Shown: positions 18,594 to 27,500 of the stretch, in pieces | How the letters are laid out: every line of letters begins with the position of its first letter | Numbering within the stretch: position 1 is the stretch's first letter | Assembly (NCBI RefSeq): GCF_027923555.1 | Contig: NZ_AP025523.1 | Span: 2,794,484-2,858,483, forward strand | Source: Vulcanimicrobium alpinum | GTDB taxonomy: Bacteria; Vulcanimicrobiota; Vulcanimicrobiia; Vulcanimicrobiales; Vulcanimicrobiaceae | DNA length: 64,000 bases | Direction: 5' to 3' | The notes under the pieces: model-generated | What the model saw: only the letters and a program-made list of their open reading frames with translations | Databases searched by the model: none | Told to the model about the DNA's origin: nothing | Position numbers and translations under genes: made by a program

Positions 18594-20306
18594 GTGAAAG
18601 CATATGAGGCGGGGACCGAAGCGTTCGCGATCCTCCGCCACCAAGCCGAAGAAGTGGGCGACGCCGAACTCCTCGCCGCCGTCGCGGCGGCCGAGCGCGC
18701 CTTCGAGCGCGCGGCGCTCGAGCGGGCGTCGCTCGAGAGCCGCCTGAACGCGACCGCGACCAACGCCGAACGGGAGTACACAAAACTCCGCACGCTCGGC
18801 CGCGTTGCCGAAACGGTCAATTCCTCGCTCGAGCTCGACGTCGTGCTGCGCCGCGTCCTCGACACCGCGGTTGAGGTGATGGAGGCCGAGCGCGGTTTCC
18901 TGATGATCGCCAACGAGCAGAACGTCCTCGAGCTGACGACCACGCACGGGATCGACCGCGCCACGGTCGAGGGCGACGCGATGCGCCCCTCGCAGACCAC
19001 GGTGCGGCGCGTGTTCGACACCGGGGTCCCGGTCGTGACCACCGACGCGCAGCAGGATCCGCGCTTCAACGTCAACCTGTCGGTGCGCGCGATGCGTCTG
19101 CGCTCGATCATCTGCGTCCCGCTGCAGATCCGCGCGCGCACGATCGGCGTCGTCTACCTCGACTCGCGCATCACCCCCGGCCTCTTCTCACCCTCGGATC
19201 CCGATCTGCTCGGGACGTTCGCAAACCAGGCGGCGCTCGCGATCGAAAACGCGCGGCTCTTCGACGCCCTGCGCGTGCAGGTCGCGCAGATCACGCGCCT
19301 CGAGCGCCTGCAGGCGCGCGTCCTCGAATCGATCACCAACGGCGTCATCACGCTCGACGGCGACGGCCGCATCGGCAGCTTCAACGACGCCGCCGCCGAG
19401 ACGTTCGGCATCGAGCGCGACGCGATGCTCGGCAGCCCCGCCCGCGCGCTCGACGCGCTGATCCCCGGGATTACCGCGATGCTGCGCGAGCACACCGGCG
19501 AGAGCCGTCCGATCGAGATGACGGCCGCGCACGCAACGCGCGGCATCCTCGCGCTCGAAGTCCGCATCGTCCCGATCGACGCGCCCGACGAGGGGACGAA
19601 ACGCGGCTGGGCGATCGCCGTCAGCGACCTCACCGAACGCCGCCAACTCGAACGCCTCCACGCGGCCGACGTCGAACAGCGCCAAGCGATCCGCGACGCG
19701 TTCTCCCGTTACCTCGCCCCGCACGTCGTCGAGCAGCTGATGCGCGCCCCCGGCGGCGTCGCACTCGGCGGCGAACGCGCCACCGCAACCGTCCTCTTCG
19801 CCGACATCGAAGGCTTCACCGAACTCGCCGAACGCCTCGACGCCGACCGCGTCGTCGAGATCCTCAACACGTTCTTCAGCAGCGCCGTCCACACCGTCTT
19901 CGAACACGACGGCCTCCTCGACAAATTCTACGGCGACGGCCTCATGGCCGTATTCGGCCCCCCACGCGTCCGAGAAGACGACGCAACAAGAGCCATCGCC
20001 GTCGCCGCCGCGCTCCACACCGCCGCCTCCACCATGACCGCCGACGGCCACCCCCTCCGCCTCTCCATCGGCATCGCCACCGGCGACGTGGTCGCCGGCC
20101 ACATCGGCAGCCACAAACGCATGGACTACACCGTCATCGGCGACGCCGCCAACCTCGCCAGCCGCCTCCAATCCGCCGCTCCCGCCGGCCACACCTACAT
20201 CGACGACGCCACCTACCAACGCCTAAAAACGAAGCCCCACAACGAAACCCTCATCGCAAAAATCCGAGGCAAAACCGCCCCCGTCACCATCCACGACATC
20301 ACCTAA
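18594..20306 (+). CDS. GAF-PAS class III nucleotide cyclase
   Basis: A 570-residue cytoplasmic signalling enzyme. An N-terminal helical/coiled part (1-70) is followed by a GAF domain (about 75-225, FLMIANEQN, SIICVPLQIRARTIGVVYLD), a PAS domain (about 240-365, NGVITLDGDGRIGSFNDAAA) and a class III cyclase domain (about 385-570). Metal-binding aspartates are in VLFADIEGFTELAERL and KFYGDGLMAVFGPP, and the transition-state residues are in GDAANLASRL. It makes cAMP or cGMP in response to a GAF/PAS signal. The start is GTG without a clear ribosome binding site, just after a hairpin. A Crp-type regulator at 24227 could be a target. Last third uses A/C-rich codons. Confidence 0.9.
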   Translation: MKAYEAGTEAFAILRHQAEEVGDAELLAAVAAAERAFERAALERASLESRLNATATNAEREYTKLRTLGRVAETVNSSLELDVVLRRVLDTAVEVMEAERGFLMIANEQNVLELTTTHGIDRATVEGDAMRPSQTTVRRVFDTGVPVVTTDAQQDPRFNVNLSVRAMRLRSIICVPLQIRARTIGVVYLDSRITPGLFSPSDPDLLGTFANQAALAIENARLFDALRVQVAQITRLERLQARVLESITNGVITLDGDGRIGSFNDAAAETFGIERDAMLGSPARALDALIPGITAMLREHTGESRPIEMTAAHATRGILALEVRIVPIDAPDEGTKRGWAIAVSDLTERRQLERLHAADVEQRQAIRDAFSRYLAPHVVEQLMRAPGGVALGGERATATVLFADIEGFTELAERLDADRVVEILNTFFSSAVHTVFEHDGLLDKFYGDGLMAVFGPPRVREDDATRAIAVAAALHTAASTMTADGHPLRLSIGIATGDVVAGHIGSHKRMDYTVIGDAANLASRLQSAAPAGHTYIDDATYQRLKTKPHNETLIAKIRGKTAPVTIHDIT

Positions 20307-20328: not shown

Positions 20329-20435
20329 TACCTTTAACAGGCTGATGAAAAATCGGCCGAGTTGATGTTGGCGTGACGGCGTTTTTCGCGTATTATAAGA
20401 GCAAGTCTCCTCATACCTTGGTGAGGTTGCGGCCG

Positions 20436-21137
20436 ATGCGGACTCATGATGAGCAGCGTGCATCCGTTTGGACGACGTTGCAGCCGGAAGACACCGTGCC
20501 CGGCGATCATCCGTTGCGCCCGATGCGCGTGATGGTCAACGAAATTCTGCGCGAACTCTCGCCGGAGTTTTCCAAGCTCTACTCGCGACGGGGCCGGCCA
20601 TCGATCGCGCCGGAGAAGCTGCTGCGAGCCTTGCTGTTGCAAATGTTCTACTCGATCCGCAGCGAGCCGATGCTGCTGGAGCAGTTGCGTTACAATTTGC
20701 TCTTTCGTTGGTTCGTGGGCTTGAGCATGGACGACAAGATCTGGGACCCCTCGACGTTCAGCAAGAACCGCGATCGGTTCTTGAATGGCGAAATCTCCGA
20801 GCGGTTCTTCGCCGCCGTGGTCGAGCGGGCGCGTGCCGACGAACTGCTCTCGAACGAGCATTTCACCGTCGATGGGACGCTAATCGAGGCGTGGGCCAGC
20901 CACAAGAGCTTTCGGCCCAAGTCGGACGACGAACCGCCGACCTCGAGCGGCGGTCGCAACGAGGGCGTGAACTTTCGTGGCCGGCCGCGCAGCAACGAGA
21001 CGCACGTCTCGAGTACCGATCCGGACGCGCGGTTGTACCGCAAGAGCAGCGGCGCGCCGGCGATTCTCGGCTATCTCGGACATGCTCTGATGGAGAATCG
21101 CAACGGCTTGATCGTCGGCGTGAAGACCACTCGCGCG
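20436..21137 (+). pseudogene. IS5-like transposase, 5' part
   Basis: This is the N-terminal half of an IS5/IS1182-type transposase: DUF772-like region (RRGRPSIAPEKLLRALLLQM, FRWFVGLSMDD) and the first catalytic aspartate in HFTVDGTLIEAWAS. The frame stays open from a GTG at 20373, but ATG at 20436 (MRTHDEQ) is a likely start. Homology stops at 21137, where the IS256 element begins; read-through ends at 21163 inside it. The rest of the gene resumes at 22506. Confidence 0.88.
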
Positions 21138-22505
21138 GATCGTGTCCCGGCCCGTGGTGTATGAGAGGGTCGCCCTTGTAGCATAGAGAGCGGCCATCGT
21201 GGCTTTCGGCGAAGGTTGTTTTTGCAACAAATAACCGACCGAAAGGGATCCACGATGGCCAAACCCAGTATCGCACTTTCCGAGCTCGTCGAAAAGGGCG
21301 GCGACGTCGACTTCGTTCGCGAGATGCTCCAGTACGCCGCGCAGCGGATCATGGAGATCGATGTTGAGGAACTCTGCGGCTTGCCCTACGGCGAGCGCGG
21401 CCCCGGCCGACAGAACGCCCGCAACGGCTTCCGCGAGCGCCAATGGGAGACGCGTTCCGGCACGATCGGACTGCGCATCCCCAAGTTGCGCAAAGGTAGC
21501 TACTTCCCCGCGTTCCTCGAGCCGCGCCGCACGGCGGAGAAGGCGCTCACCGCCGTCATCCAAGAGGCCTACATCCAGGGCATCTCCACGCGCTCGGTCG
21601 ACGAGCTCGTCAAGGCGATGGGGATGACAGGCATCTCCAAGAGTCAGGTCTCACGGCTGTGCGAAGAGATCGACGAACGCGTGAACGCATTTCTTACCCG
21701 GCCGATCGAAGGCGACTGGCCCTATCTTTGGATCGACGCGACGTACGTGAAGACGCGCTCCGGCGGACGCATCGTCTCGGTCGCCGTGATACTGGCCGTC
21801 GGCGTAAACACCGATGGGACACGGGAATTGTTGGGCCTCGCGGTTGGTCCGAGCGAAGCAGAGCCGTTCTGGATCGACTTTCTTCGCAGCTTGAGCCGCC
21901 GCGGATTGCGCGGTGTCAAGCTCGTCATTTCCGACTCGCATGTCGGCCTGAAAGCGGCCATCGCGAAAGTATTCAAAGCAACGTGGCAGCGCTGCCGCGT
22001 GCATTTTATGCGAAACGCGCTCGCACATGCGGGTAAAGGGCAACGGCAGATGGTCCTCGCGTTGATCAACACGGTATTCGCGCAAGAGACAGCGGAAGCT
22101 GCGCACGAGCAATGGCGTATCGTCTCCGAGCAGCTTCGGCAGAAGTTCCCGAAGCTCGCGGCGATGATGGACGACGCCGAGAACGACGTGCTCGCGTACA
22201 TGGACTTTCCCAAGGCGCACCGCAAGCAGATCGTCTCAACCAATCCGCTCGAACGGGTCAACGCGGAGATCAAGCGGCGCACCGATGTCGTCGGTATCTT
22301 CCCGAACGATGCTGCCATCGTACGCCTCGTCGGTGCGCTCCTACTGGAACAGAACGACGAATGGCAACTGCAGCGGCGCTACATGCAACTCGAAGGACTC
22401 AGTGCCGTCAGCGATAATCAGCCCGCCAAGCTCTCCGCCGTGATTAACGGCTGAGCGCTACCCTCGCCGAGCCACCGCTCGTACACCACGGCTGGGGACA
22501 CGATC
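21138..22505 (+). mobile_element. IS256-family insertion sequence
   Basis: A 1368-bp element with inverted ends: left GATCGTGTCCCGGCCCGTGG and right, read inwards, GATCGTGTCCCCAGCCGTGG. Both continue into GTGTAYGAGMGG. It is flanked by an 8-bp target duplication CTCGCGCG at 21130-21137, seen as CTCGCGGCG at 22506-22514 with one extra G. It carries a full-length transposase gene and sits inside the IS5-like transposase, so it arrived later. Everything needed for mobility appears intact. Confidence 0.9.
21255..22454 (+). CDS. IS256-family (Mutator-type) transposase
   Basis: A 399-residue DDE transposase. Catalytic residues are in [10 protein letters not shown] (first D), [14 protein letters not shown] (second D) and [14 protein letters not shown] (E); the CRVHFMRN motif of the family follows the second D. 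The N-terminal [19 protein letters not shown] block is typical. The start ATG at 21255 follows an AAAGGGA ribosome binding site. The gene is intact, so the element may still be active. Confidence 0.95.
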
Positions 22506-22895
22506 CTCGCGGCGACCGGGATCGCCGAACGCGAAGCAGCGCTGGAATTGATTCGCGGGGTCAGCGGAAGCAACCGAATCACGCTCGGCGCCGACAAGGC
22601 GTACGATACCAAAGACTTTGTCGAGGCGTTGCGAGCGCTCAACGTGACGCCGCACGTTGCTCAAAATACGACCCGTCGCCGCAGCGCGATCGACCGCCGA
22701 ACCGTCCGCCATCCGGGCTACACGGTGAGTCAACGCAGGCGCAAGTTGATCGAGGAGAGCTTCGGGTGGGGCAAGACGATCGGCCGATTGCGCAAGGTGC
22801 ATTTCCGCGGGCTTGATCTGGTCGGCGACATTGTGCGCTGGACGGCCGCGGCGTACAACTTGATCAGGATACGCAATCTGAGGGCCGCGACATGA
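22506..22895 (+). pseudogene. IS5-like transposase, 3' part
   Basis: The continuation of the transposase started at 20436. It begins after the target duplication with ATGIAEREAALELIRG and holds the second catalytic aspartate (LGADKAYDTKDFVEAL) and the glutamate (RRKLIEESFGWGKTIGRLRK). Joining ...VKTTRA at 21137 to TGIAERE here restores a normal transposase, apart from one extra base at the junction. It has no own start and is not expected to be functional. Confidence 0.85.
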
Positions 22896-23327: not shown

Positions 23328-23723
23328 CTACCGCTTCGAAAACTGGAAGCGTTTACGAGCCTTCTTACGCCCGTACTTCTTCGATTCTTTCTCCCGCGGA
23401 TCACGCGTCAGCAGCCCATTCCGCCGCAACGGCTCCCGCAACGACTCATCCATCTCCAGCAACGCCCGCGCAATCCCATGCCGAACCGCACCGGCCTGCC
23501 CGGAAACCCCGCCCCCCTCGCACTTCACATCCACATTGAACCGCGAAAGCGACTGCGTCACCTCCAACGGCTGACGCACGATCTGCTGCAGCGAAGGCCG
23601 CGGAAAATACTCATCGACCGGCCGCTTGTTCACGGTGATCACACCCTGCCCCAGCGAAAGCCGAACCCGAGCGATGCCGCGCTTGCGGCGCCCCGTCCCG
23701 TGGAAATTATCGGTCGTCTGCAT
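23328..23723 (-). CDS. rpsI: 30S ribosomal protein S9
   Basis: A 131-residue uS9. Typical segments are [19 protein letters not shown] near the N-terminus, [20 protein letters not shown] and the basic tail ending [13 protein letters not shown], whose terminal KR reaches the ribosomal P site. The ATG at 23723 overlaps the rplM stop (TGATG), as in the standard rplM-rpsI operon. A GTG one codon earlier is also in frame. Confidence 0.97.
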
Positions 23724-24148
23724 CACGCAAGCTGCTCCGGCTGCTGCGCCGCGTGCGGATGCTCCGCACCGGCATACACGTTCAAGCGTCCAAGGTGCAC
23801 GTCACGCATCCGGTTCGTCGCGAGCATCCCGCGCACGGCGCGCTCGATCAGCCGTTCCGGATACTTCGCCCGCACCTGCGCCGCGGTCTCGGTGCGCAGA
23901 CCGCCCGGGAAGCCCGAGTGCCGGTGATAGACCTTCTGCGTCCACTTGCGCGGCGCGAGCTCGACCTTGTCGGCGTTGATGACGATGACGTGGTCGCCGT
24001 CGTCGATGTGCGGGGTCCAGGTCGGCTTCGAACGCCCGGAGAGGGCACGCGCGATGCGCACCGCGAGCGTTCCGAGCCGCTGCCCGGTCGCGTCGACGAT
24101 GTACCAGTCGTGCTGGGTCTCGGCGGTCTTTTGCTGATATGTGCGCAT
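23723..24148 (-). CDS. rplM: 50S ribosomal protein L13
   Basis: A 141-residue uL13. The N-terminus [20 protein letters not shown] and the blocks [11 protein letters not shown]-like ([16 protein letters not shown]), [25 protein letters not shown] and [15 protein letters not shown] are diagnostic. The start at 24148 is chosen because homology begins there; an upstream extension is possible but not L13-like. Together with rpsI it forms the usual two-gene operon. Confidence 0.97.
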
Positions 24149-24226: not shown

Positions 24227-24886
24227 TCAGGAACCCCGGAAGTCAACCGCCGCGAGCTCCGCCAGACGCTCCGGACGGAGCAGGACGAGCCCCCGCAAGC
24301 GGCTGCCGCGCACGAGACCCTCGCGCGCGAACGCGGCCACCGCACTCGAGCACGACTCGCGGGTCGTGCCGGCCAGGCCGGCCAGATCCTCCTGCGAGAG
24401 CGGCAGGTCGAGCCGCACCGCGCCGTCCGCCTGCGCGATGCCGGCGTCCTCGGCGAGTTCGAGCAGCGCCCCGGCCACCCGCGACTCGACCGGAGCGCGG
24501 CTGAACGCCTCGAGCTTGCGCTGGACGCGCAGGGTCCGCCGGGCCAGCGACCGGGCGATCGTCGCGTACATCGCGGGGGCGGCGGCGGCGTGGCGATCCC
24601 ACACCTCGCTCGAGACGCGCAGGATCGCGCCGTCGGTGACGGCCTCGGCCCCGCTCTCGGCGGAGCGGTCGCCGAACACCGTCCCGGGCGCGAGGAGCTG
24701 GCCCGGGCCGGCTAAGACGAGCGTCACGTCGCGGACGAACGCCGCATTGCGGAAGACCCGGAACCAGCCGTCGTACACGACGGCAACGGCCGGGGCGTCG
24801 AGCGGGACGATCGTTCCGCGGCCGACCGAGACCACGCTGCCGTCGGCGGCCAGGCGCTCCAGGACGGCGGAATCCAGTGCGGGCAC
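24227..24886 (-). CDS. Crp/Fnr-family transcriptional regulator
   Basis: A 219-residue regulator with an N-terminal cyclic-nucleotide-binding-like beta roll (1-110) and a C-terminal winged helix-turn-helix (LPLSQEDLAGLAGTTRESCS, then AVAAFAREGLV). The dimerisation helix contains LARRTLRVQRKLEAF. The residues that bind cAMP in Crp are not clearly conserved and no Fnr cysteine cluster is seen, so the ligand is open. The gene is divergent from the PYP-like gene, separated by about 50 bp or overlapping depending on that start, and may regulate it. Confidence 0.88.
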   Translation of the reverse strand: MPALDSAVLERLAADGSVVSVGRGTIVPLDAPAVAVVYDGWFRVFRNAAFVRDVTLVLAGPGQLLAPGTVFGDRSAESGAEAVTDGAILRVSSEVWDRHAAAAPAMYATIARSLARRTLRVQRKLEAFSRAPVESRVAGALLELAEDAGIAQADGAVRLDLPLSQEDLAGLAGTTRESCSSAVAAFAREGLVRGSRLRGLVLLRPERLAELAAVDFRGS

Positions 24887-24939
24887 GGGGCTGGATTGCG
24901 TTGCCGGGTCGTTCCGCCCCCTCCGCGAATGAACCGCTC

Positions 24940-25311
24940 GTGGACGTCAGCGGTTCGGAGGCGATCTTCGACCTCGGGGAGACCGAGGTCGATGCGTTGC
25001 CGTTCGGCCTGATCGGGGTCGATGCCACCGGGACGATCGAGCAGTACAACGCGTACGAATCGCGGCTTGCCCGGCTCTCGAAGGAGCGCGTGATCGGCCG
25101 CAACTTCTTCCGCGACGTCGCGCCTTGCACCGCGGTGAAGGAGTTCCAGGGCCGCTTCGAGCGCTTCGCGGCGGAGCCCGGCGACGGCGCCGAGTCGTTC
25201 GATTTCGAATTCCGCTTCCCGTTCGGACGGCAGTTCGTGAACATCACGTTCCTGCGCAGCGCCAAGAGCGGTCAGATCAAGATTCTCGTCAACCGATACG
25301 ACGAACAGTAG
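24940..25311 (+). CDS. photoactive yellow protein homologue
   Basis: A 123-residue single PAS domain that aligns without gaps to photoactive yellow protein over the chromophore region. QYNAYE gives the equivalents of Tyr42 and Glu46 (here Y36, E40). VIGRNFFRDVAPCT gives the equivalent of Cys69 (C63), to which p-coumaric acid is attached in PYP. The PYP residues Thr50 and Arg52 are replaced by Ala and Leu. PYP is a cytoplasmic blue-light sensor. The start is taken as GTG at 24940, giving PYP length; the frame is open from a GTG at 24877. A chemoreceptor gene follows 26 bp downstream. No hydroxycinnamate ligase or ammonia-lyase is in the window. Confidence 0.72.
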   Translation: MDVSGSEAIFDLGETEVDALPFGLIGVDATGTIEQYNAYESRLARLSKERVIGRNFFRDVAPCTAVKEFQGRFERFAAEPGDGAESFDFEFRFPFGRQFVNITFLRSAKSGQIKILVNRYDEQ

Positions 25312-25337: not shown

Positions 25338-26723
25338 GTGGCACTCTCTTCGTTGGATCTGTTCTTGATCGCGGCGACCGTTGCGGCCGCCGTCGCCGCG
25401 GTCGCGGCGATGCTCGCCGGTCGGCGCGCGTCGCGCGCGATCGCCGCCCAGCGCGCGATCCTGCGCGGCGCGCTCGACGTCGCCGGGAGCGATCGCATCG
25501 AAGACCTGGTCGGCGGGATCGTCGCCGCGCGCCGGCGCGCCGACGCGATCGCCGCGCTCGCGCCGGCCGCCGACGAGGTCGTCGAACGGCAGGCGAGGCT
25601 CGCCAGCGCGCTGGTCGCGCGCGACGCCGCGGGGATCGCCGCATAGGACGCGCTGACCGCGACGTTCGGCGCGCTCACCACCGCGAACGGCGCGGTCACG
25701 GAACTCACGCAGGGCGTCGGCGAAGCCGGCGCGGCGGTCGAGCAGGCGGTTTCGTCGATCAGCACCGTCTCCGACAACATCACCGGAATCGCCGAAGGCG
25801 TCGGGACAGTGAGCTCGTCGATCGGTCAACTCGCGGTCTCCGTGAATCAGGTAGCCGGCTGTGCGCGCGAAGCGTCGACCCTCTCGCTCGAAGCCGACCG
25901 CAAGGCGCGCGACGGCGGGGTCGCGGTCGAGCGGCTCGTGCGCTCGACGCGTGAGATCGCCGACGACATCAACACCGTCGTCTCAACGATGGAAGAACTC
26001 GGCACCGCGTCCGAACGGATCGGCGCGATCGTCGAAGTGATCGACGCGATCGCCGACCAGACGAACCTGCTGGCGCTCAACGCCGCGATAGAAGCCGCGC
26101 GCGCCGACGAGCACGGCCGCGGCTTCGCCGTGGTCGCCGACGAAGTGCGCAAACTCGCCGAAAGTTCGGCCCAGTCGACGCGCGAGATCGGCCAGCTCGT
26201 CAAAGACATTCAAGCGAAGACCGCCGAGGTCGTGCGCTCGACGACGGCCTCGGGGACGAAGGCGGAGAGCGGCCTGGAGATGGCCGCTCTCGCCGGTCGC
26301 ACGATCGCCGACATCCCGTCGTCGGTGAGCAAAGCGAACCGGCTGATCGAGCAGATCTCGATGGCGGCGCGCGAATAGGCGGCCGGGTCGTCGGCGATCG
26401 TGAACTCGGTCGAACAGATGAACCTGCTGATGCGCGAAGCAGCGCGTTCGCTCGAAGAGCAGAACACGTCTAACCGGCAGATCATTCAGATCATCGCGAA
26501 GATCCAGCGCCACGCGAACGGCGTCGAGGAGACGCTGGCGCGCCAGCGCGGCGCGAGCGAGAAGCTGATGGCGCAGGCGAAATCGCTCGCGGCCGCGGGC
26601 CGCGCGACCGCCGACGCAAACGCCGGCTTCGACGACCTCGTGATCTCGCTCCGCGACCGCCTGCGGCGCGTCGCTTCGGGTCAGCTCGTCGCCCGCGAGG
26701 AAGCGGCTCTCGCGAGCCGCTGA
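25338..26723 (+). pseudogene. methyl-accepting chemotaxis protein with two in-frame TAG codons
   Basis: This is one continuous 461-codon frame broken only by TAG at 25644-25646 and 26376-26378. The start GTG at 25338 has an AAGGAG six bases upstream. A hydrophobic helix (residues 5-27) is followed by a helical linker without a periplasmic sensor domain. Then comes the MCP signalling hairpin with the canonical tip ([39 protein letters not shown]). The second TAG stands where MCPs have Gln in the EQAAG motif, so CAG to TAG explains it. No frameshift is present. Without readthrough the protein is cut into three pieces. The neighbouring PYP-like sensor suggests a light-responsive receptor. Confidence 0.85.
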
Positions 26724-26726
26724 GGC

Positions 26727-27500
26727 TCAGGGACGCAGCGCGACCGGCCGGTACGTGTCGAACGCGTCGTAGCGGACGCCCGCGAGATAGAGTCCGTGCG
26801 CGGGCGCCGTCGTCCCCGCGGCGGTGCGGTCACGCGCCGCAAGCGCGCGCGCCGTCAGCTCGAGATCGCGATAGCCGGTCGCGACGTCGACCAGCGTCCC
26901 GACGATGATGCGCACCATCCGGTGCAGGAACGCGTTGCCGCGCACCGTGATGCGCACCAGATCGCCGGATCGCGCGGCGTCGATTGCAAACACCTCGCGC
27001 ACGGTGCCGCCGCGTTCGGGAAGCTCGCCGCAGAACGTCACGAAGTCGTGCTCGCCGACAAGCGGCGCGGCGGCCTGCACGAGGCGCGCATCGTCGAGCG
27101 CACGCGGAACGATCCACGCGCGCGCGCGCCAGATCGCCGACGGATAGGGACGGTTGACGATCAGGTAGTCGTAGACGCGCTCGAGCGCGTCGAAACGCGC
27201 GGAGAACCCGTCGGCGACGAGCGCGGCATCGCGGACCACCAGATCCGCGGGCGTGCAGGCGTTGAGCGCAAGGCGCAGGCGTTCGATCGGAAACGCGCGC
27301 TCGGCACGGAACGAGATCACCTGCCCGGTCGCGTGGACGCCGGCATCGGTGCGGCCGGCGGCGCTGATCTTCACGACCTGATGGAAGAGCCGCGCGAGCG
27401 CGTCTTCGAGCGCGCCGGCGACGGTGCGCAGCGCGGGCTGGTACTGCAGCCCGTGAAACGCGGACCCGTCGTATTCGACGACGAGACGATACGTCGGCAC
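26727..27500 (-). CDS. truA: tRNA pseudouridine(38-40) synthase
   Basis: A 257-residue TruA, which isomerises uridines 38-40 in tRNA anticodon arms. The catalytic aspartate is D52 in SAAGRTDAGVHA. Other family blocks are YDGSAFHGLQYQP at the N-terminus, RVYDYLIVNRPYPSAIW and NAFLHRMVRIIVGTLVDVATGY. The gene is convergent with the chemoreceptor gene, three bases apart. A strong terminator lies just upstream, so it has its own transcription start. Confidence 0.96.
   Translation of the reverse strand: MPTYRLVVEYDGSAFHGLQYQPALRTVAGALEDALARLFHQVVKISAAGRTDAGVHATGQVISFRAERAFPIERLRLALNACTPADLVVRDAALVADGFSARFDALERVYDYLIVNRPYPSAIWRARAWIVPRALDDARLVQAAAPLVGEHDFVTFCGELPERGGTVREVFAIDAARSGDLVRITVRGNAFLHRMVRIIVGTLVDVATGYRDLELTARALAARDRTAAGTTAPAHGLYLAGVRYDAFDTYRPVALRP

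Follow-up and report, generated by a model that had tools for sequence, protein, structure and literature searches.

A photoactive yellow protein homologue paired with a Crp/Fnr-type regulator in phototrophic Vulcanimicrobiota

Of the photoreceptors for which a signalling partner is seldom known, free single-domain photoactive yellow proteins (PYPs) have been studied best. A candidate for such a protein is encoded in a stretch of 64,000 nucleotides (the window; G+C content 68.7%) of the genome (G000) of the Antarctic phototroph Vulcanimicrobium alpinum; this genome is complete and consists of a single contig of 3,508,363 bp. Its locus raises the questions of whether the protein is a genuine PYP, on which partner it could act and from where its chromophore could come.

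Family, fold and chromophore pocket

The gene lies at genome position 2,819,423 and corresponds to the following feature of the window:

24940..25311, (+) strand: pyp-alpha, single-domain PYP homologue (123 aa, GTG start, TAG stop)

As the sequence-only reading of this DNA had proposed, its product is a PYP homologue, which is supported by a profile search (TIGR02373 photo_yellow, E 2.9e-26), by phylogeny and by the predicted fold. The profile score of 92 bits is below the curated cut-off of 143 bits, which we did not take as defining the wider PYP family, because TIGR02373 is an equivalog model for H. halophila-like PYPs and a Ppr-type PYP (L046) also falls short of it, with 123.6 bits. The general Pfam PAS model gave only 27.6 bits. 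Among PDB sequences, the PYP domain of Ppr was the best match (1mzu, E 2.2e-19), followed by the PYP of H. halophila, and the alignment contains no gaps across the chromophore region, as had been claimed. Tyr42, Glu46 and Cys69 of PYP are kept as Y36, E40 and C63, again in agreement with that reading, and are joined by L26, F28, G29, I31, D34, G37, N43, G59, F62, F63, A67, P68 and F79 (13/13), so that none of the 16 strongly conserved PYP residues that could be placed (list from PMC12826048) is missing from the window protein.

Structure prediction, which had been suggested as a check, yielded an AlphaFold model (pLDDT 85.9) whose 40 best PDB fold matches are all PYPs, with a TM-score of about 0.88 to H. 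halophila PYP; listed plain PAS domains reach 0.62-0.68. When plain PAS domains were included in a phylogeny, the protein stood on the PYP side in the best tree, with a support of 50/81 for the split in this short alignment, the few columns of which leave deep branches weak. This moderately supported split and the low TIGR02373 score are what would speak for an ordinary PAS domain that has converged on PYP. Such a convergence is nevertheless highly improbable: the Ppr-type protein misses the same cut-off, a PYP family profile recovers every PYP at E < 1e-36 and no other PAS domain better than 5e-5, and the top fold matches and all 16 conserved residues are those of PYPs. Moreover, homologues with the same three residues were found throughout the phylum, which shows that the window protein is not a chance match.

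Clear PYPs are encoded in about 24 of the 149 phylum genomes that we scanned. Cys69 is kept in 43 of 44 phylum PYPs, and 42 have also kept Tyr42 and Glu/Gln46. A tree with 106 rows unites the PYPs of the phylum in a single clade (support 100/96), to which two long-branch rows, one acidobacterial and one myxobacterial, also belong; another PYP copy of the phototroph G118 is placed outside this clade. The window protein is a genuine PYP family member of this Vulcanimicrobiota-specific clade. Its lineage had been called unexpected, a view that cannot be upheld: PYP has been listed in Ca. Eremiobacterota (PMC12826048, 2025), and one PYP, WPS_26150, was named for V. alpinum itself (PMC9758169, 2022). 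PYP in this phylum is therefore not news, and the window PYP is a further member of an established family; an earlier account of this pyp gene or its context was not found in the literature searched.

The sequence-only reading had also pointed to changes at Thr50 and Arg52, which exist relative to H. halophila PYP but not relative to the family. Ala50 and Leu52 of the window PYP, like its Ser47 and Leu49, represent the PYP consensus, and the former two are the consensus of 984 PYPs (PMC12826048). No particular colour shift follows from them, contrary to what had been expected, since the four characterised Ala50 PYPs span a range of 435-465 nm (PMC12826048). The PYP domain of Ppr from Rhodospirillum centenum resembles the window PYP in its fold, its Tyr/Glu/Cys pocket and the gap-free chromophore region, but is fused to a phytochrome and a histidine kinase and carries Ser50, whereas the window PYP is a free single domain with Ala50 and Leu52. 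With H. halophila PYP (2phy/1nwz) it shares the single-domain organization, length, fold and key pocket residues, yet the two are only about 30% identical and differ at positions 50 and 52; moreover, the window locus has no pCL-TAL operon and features a divergent Crp partner instead.

A conserved Crp-PYP locus and its chemoreceptor neighbour

The surroundings of pyp-alpha comprise these features of the window:

23723..24148, (-) strand: rplM, bounding the conserved locus on the left
24227..24886, (-) strand: Crp/Fnr-type regulator, forming a divergent pair with pyp-alpha (start codons 53 bp apart)
24887..24939, no strand: divergent crp-pyp intergenic region, inspected in an alignment of five genomes
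25338..26723, (+) strand: methyl-accepting chemotaxis protein (MCP) with an N-terminal transmembrane stretch, starting 26 bp after pyp
26727..27500, (-) strand: truA, bounding the conserved locus on the right

The order rplM, divergent Crp, PYP and truA is present in all five genomes that bear a PYP of this alpha type, which belong to five genera. Across these five phototrophic genomes the Crp partners are 54-61% identical, and they exceed 200 bits in exactly these genomes, the next match in the phylum reaching 75 bits. The regulator has an HTH_Crp_2 domain that scores above its cut-off and a degenerate cNMP-binding domain (20.3 bits versus a cut-off of 27.5). Inspection of the aligned intergenic regions of the five genomes revealed no shared Crp operator.

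Reaction-centre genes (PF00124), which alone define phototroph status among the scanned genomes, occur in only six of the 149 (G000, G060, G061, G090, G095 and G118). Alpha PYPs were found in five of these six phototrophs and in no other genome, and the same holds for the PYP-Crp pair, which is absent from the 143 other phylum genomes (alpha PYP versus phototrophy: Fisher p 1e-8, kinship not corrected for). The sixth phototroph, G060 (82% complete), has pufLM and no PYP match; many of the relatives are MAGs, and absences are therefore soft.

The explanation that we favour, and to which we give about an even chance, is that of a blue-light PYP sensor that acts via the divergently encoded Crp/Fnr-type regulator on phototrophy genes. 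A p-hydroxycinnamoyl thioester on Cys63 would absorb blue light and enter the usual PYP photocycle, the resulting signalling state would act on the regulator, and the latter, with its degenerate cyclic-nucleotide domain, would adjust the expression of phototrophy genes. The window PYP thereby probably helps the cell to set its photosynthesis genes to light. In favour of this explanation we counted, beside the family, the pocket and the distribution and loss of the pair, the phototroph-linked delta and gamma paralogues, the coumarate ligase of G118 and the light response of bchM (all described below). Gene adjacency alone does not prove that PYP and Crp interact, and we counted this against the explanation, together with the missing shared operator, the PYP-less phototroph G060 and the fact that the association takes no account of kinship.

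The pair has also decayed together with phototrophy. Ten congeners, with rplM sequences that are 90-96% identical, have neither reaction-centre genes nor PYPs. In eight of them, rplM, MCP and truA occupy the same site, with the MCP intact and no intact Crp-PYP pair in place. Congener G124 retains a Crp C-terminus of 50 aa and a PYP C-terminus of 33 aa (each with 70% identity) immediately before the MCP, and PYP tails of 12 aa are left at this site in G123 and G128. These remnants imply that the ancestor of the genus possessed Crp-PYP, which the non-phototrophs then lost. They suggest vertical inheritance followed by loss of a phototrophy-linked locus, which bears on how phototrophy has spread in the phylum.

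V. alpinum is the reverse of its congeners, with an intact PYP and Crp next to a broken MCP. Its MCP gene contains two in-frame TAG codons (25644-25646 and 26376-26378) where the relatives have CAG (Gln), without a frameshift or excessive divergence. We rejected amber suppression as a rescue of this gene, since a search, which was not exhaustive, found no tRNA that fits a simple amber-suppressor pattern, and since TAG already serves as the natural stop of the window PYP, at a position where its relatives have TGA or TAA.

The state of the MCP bears on a second explanation, according to which the PYP is a phototaxis receptor that signals to the neighbouring chemoreceptor and thus to motility, as proposed for Leptospira PYPs. 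The two genes lie on the same strand at a short distance, no sensory domain was seen in the MCP, the arrangement Crp-PYP-MCP was ancestral to the genus, and a PYP adjoins an MCP again in the relative G118. Chemoreceptors without a sensory domain also adjoin the PYP genes of Leptospira clade B (PMC9664959), and V. alpinum shows phototaxis to light of 470 nm (PMC9758169). In contrast to the Leptospira pair, however, the chemoreceptor of V. alpinum is broken, and the neighbour that is conserved across phototrophs is the Crp-type regulator. Four other phototrophs have no MCP at the locus, and the congeners that have lost the PYP keep theirs intact, so that we rejected the MCP as a conserved partner and regard a phototaxis receptor at this locus as improbable. 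The ancestor may have had an MCP route, which looks closed in the V. alpinum strain.

A second chemoreceptor of V. alpinum is split over two frames (genome 1,282,678-1,283,114; L194 and L195), and two of the three MCP genes of this phototactic bacterium look broken. Near the crp-pyp locus, the window also encodes a GAF-PAS class III nucleotide cyclase (18594-20306); of the relatives with contigs that extend far enough, most have it on this side of rplM too. Transposase genes lie between this cyclase and rpsI (20373-22895), and the two that we queried had no match at that place in the relatives examined.

Chromophore supply

A search for chromophore-making enzymes, the other check that had been suggested, detected neither a tyrosine ammonia-lyase (TAL) nor a 4-coumarate-CoA ligase of the TIGR02372 family (profile search) in the complete V. 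alpinum genome. The only aromatic lyase is HutH, which lies in a hut cluster, scores 672 bits against a family cut-off of 539 and contains an SHACGVG loop; family score and loop led us to reject it as a tyrosine lyase. An AMP-ligase encoded beside the beta-type PYP was rejected as a coumarate ligase, as its best PDB match is an oxalate-CoA ligase. By inspection, an OxlT-like gene lies near this ligase gene. With neither enzyme in the genome, p-coumaroyl-CoA is without a known source in V. alpinum, which we likewise counted against the sensor explanation. The sequence-only reading had named this absence, together with a placement among ordinary PAS domains, as evidence against a PYP: the first part holds in V. 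alpinum as far as the searches reached, but the second apparently does not, as the window protein groups with the PYPs in the best tree.

These absences could mean that the protein is a PYP-fold sensor that works without p-coumarate, be it as an apoprotein, by cysteine redox-sensing or with another acyl thioester. Consistent with this idea, the phototroph G090 (99% complete), which has six PYP-like genes, contains no aromatic lyase at all, and the ligase next to the beta PYP of V. alpinum resembles oxalate-CoA ligases. On the other hand, Tyr42, Glu46 and Cys69 occur together in nearly all phylum PYPs, and the phototroph G118 does encode a PYP-type coumarate ligase (L184:15212-16429, (-) strand), about 5 kb from pufLM on the same contig and with crt genes nearby. 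This enzyme scores 302.7 bits against TIGR02372 (cut-off 335; next family 68) and is about 50-55% identical to the ligases beside burkholderial PYPs. TAL is part of only about 5% of published pyp operons and pCL of about 32%, so that a lack of both nearby is common, and it is accepted that p-coumarate may be taken up or that enzymes of broad range may serve instead (PMC12826048). With both missing from its complete genome, V. alpinum may import the compound, activate it by a ligase of broad range or do without it, and we consider the last of these, a sensor without p-coumarate, rather unlikely.

Paralogues and a possible wider role of free PYPs

V. alpinum encodes four PYP homologues, and the three besides the window PYP are 44-51% identical to it and all have the Tyr/Glu/Cys triad. 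The phylum PYPs fall into four subclades, alpha (the window type), beta, gamma and delta. Beta is broad and includes non-phototrophs. Among the 149 genomes, gamma PYPs are confined to four phototrophs, where the neighbourhood consists of ftsX-ftsE, a peroxiredoxin gene and the PYP gene, and delta PYPs are found in four phototrophs and, as one copy, in the non-phototroph G078. The delta gene of V. alpinum is located as follows:

L018:7064-7456, genome 2,562,096-2,562,455, (-) strand: delta PYP in the photosynthesis gene cluster, flanked by bchCXYZ and the gene of a hemL-like aminotransferase

The order bchC-X-Y-Z, delta PYP, hemL-like gene and, beyond it, bchP-G-B is shared by V. alpinum and G090; G095 has the left half of this order, where its contig ends, and G118 has bchZ-PYP-hemL. 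In V. alpinum, about 8.5 kb separate the delta PYP from pufLM.

The published WPS_26150 resembles the window PYP in being a PYP homologue of the same organism, but is very probably a different paralogue. With the PEP carboxylase WPS_26910 (PMC9758169) at 2,640,177 as an anchor, interpolation of locus tags puts WPS_26150 at about 2.566 Mb, which fits the delta PYP at 2.562 Mb, and we thus rejected an identity with the window PYP. The delta protein in the photosynthesis gene cluster shares about 45% identity with the window PYP.

In purple bacteria, BLUF and B12 photoreceptors do the job of tuning photosystem and tetrapyrrole synthesis. Free PYPs of Vulcanimicrobiota, one paired with Crp and another beside bchXYZ and the hemL-like gene, could conceivably adjust the synthesis of the photosystem or of tetrapyrroles to blue light, a proposal that we put forward only tentatively. 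With a transcription factor as its one conserved partner, a distribution restricted to the phototrophs of its phylum and decay in non-phototrophs, the window PYP offers a direct and testable partner and output. V. alpinum would be well suited for such work, being cultured and phototactic, with no receptor identified and with a light-responsive bchM, which is 2.9-fold up in light (PMC9758169).

Several paralogues deviate in their pockets. The delta PYP of G078 (L136), whose genome has no reaction-centre genes, carries Trp in place of Cys69. In the phototroph G090, an in-frame gap deletes Tyr42 and Glu46 of the delta PYP (L132), possibly due to misassembly. A beta PYP of G118 (L122:7959-8321) has Gln46, a variant whose natural representatives have reportedly not been studied (PMC12826048); directly after its gene comes that of a chemoreceptor whose membrane part has several helices.
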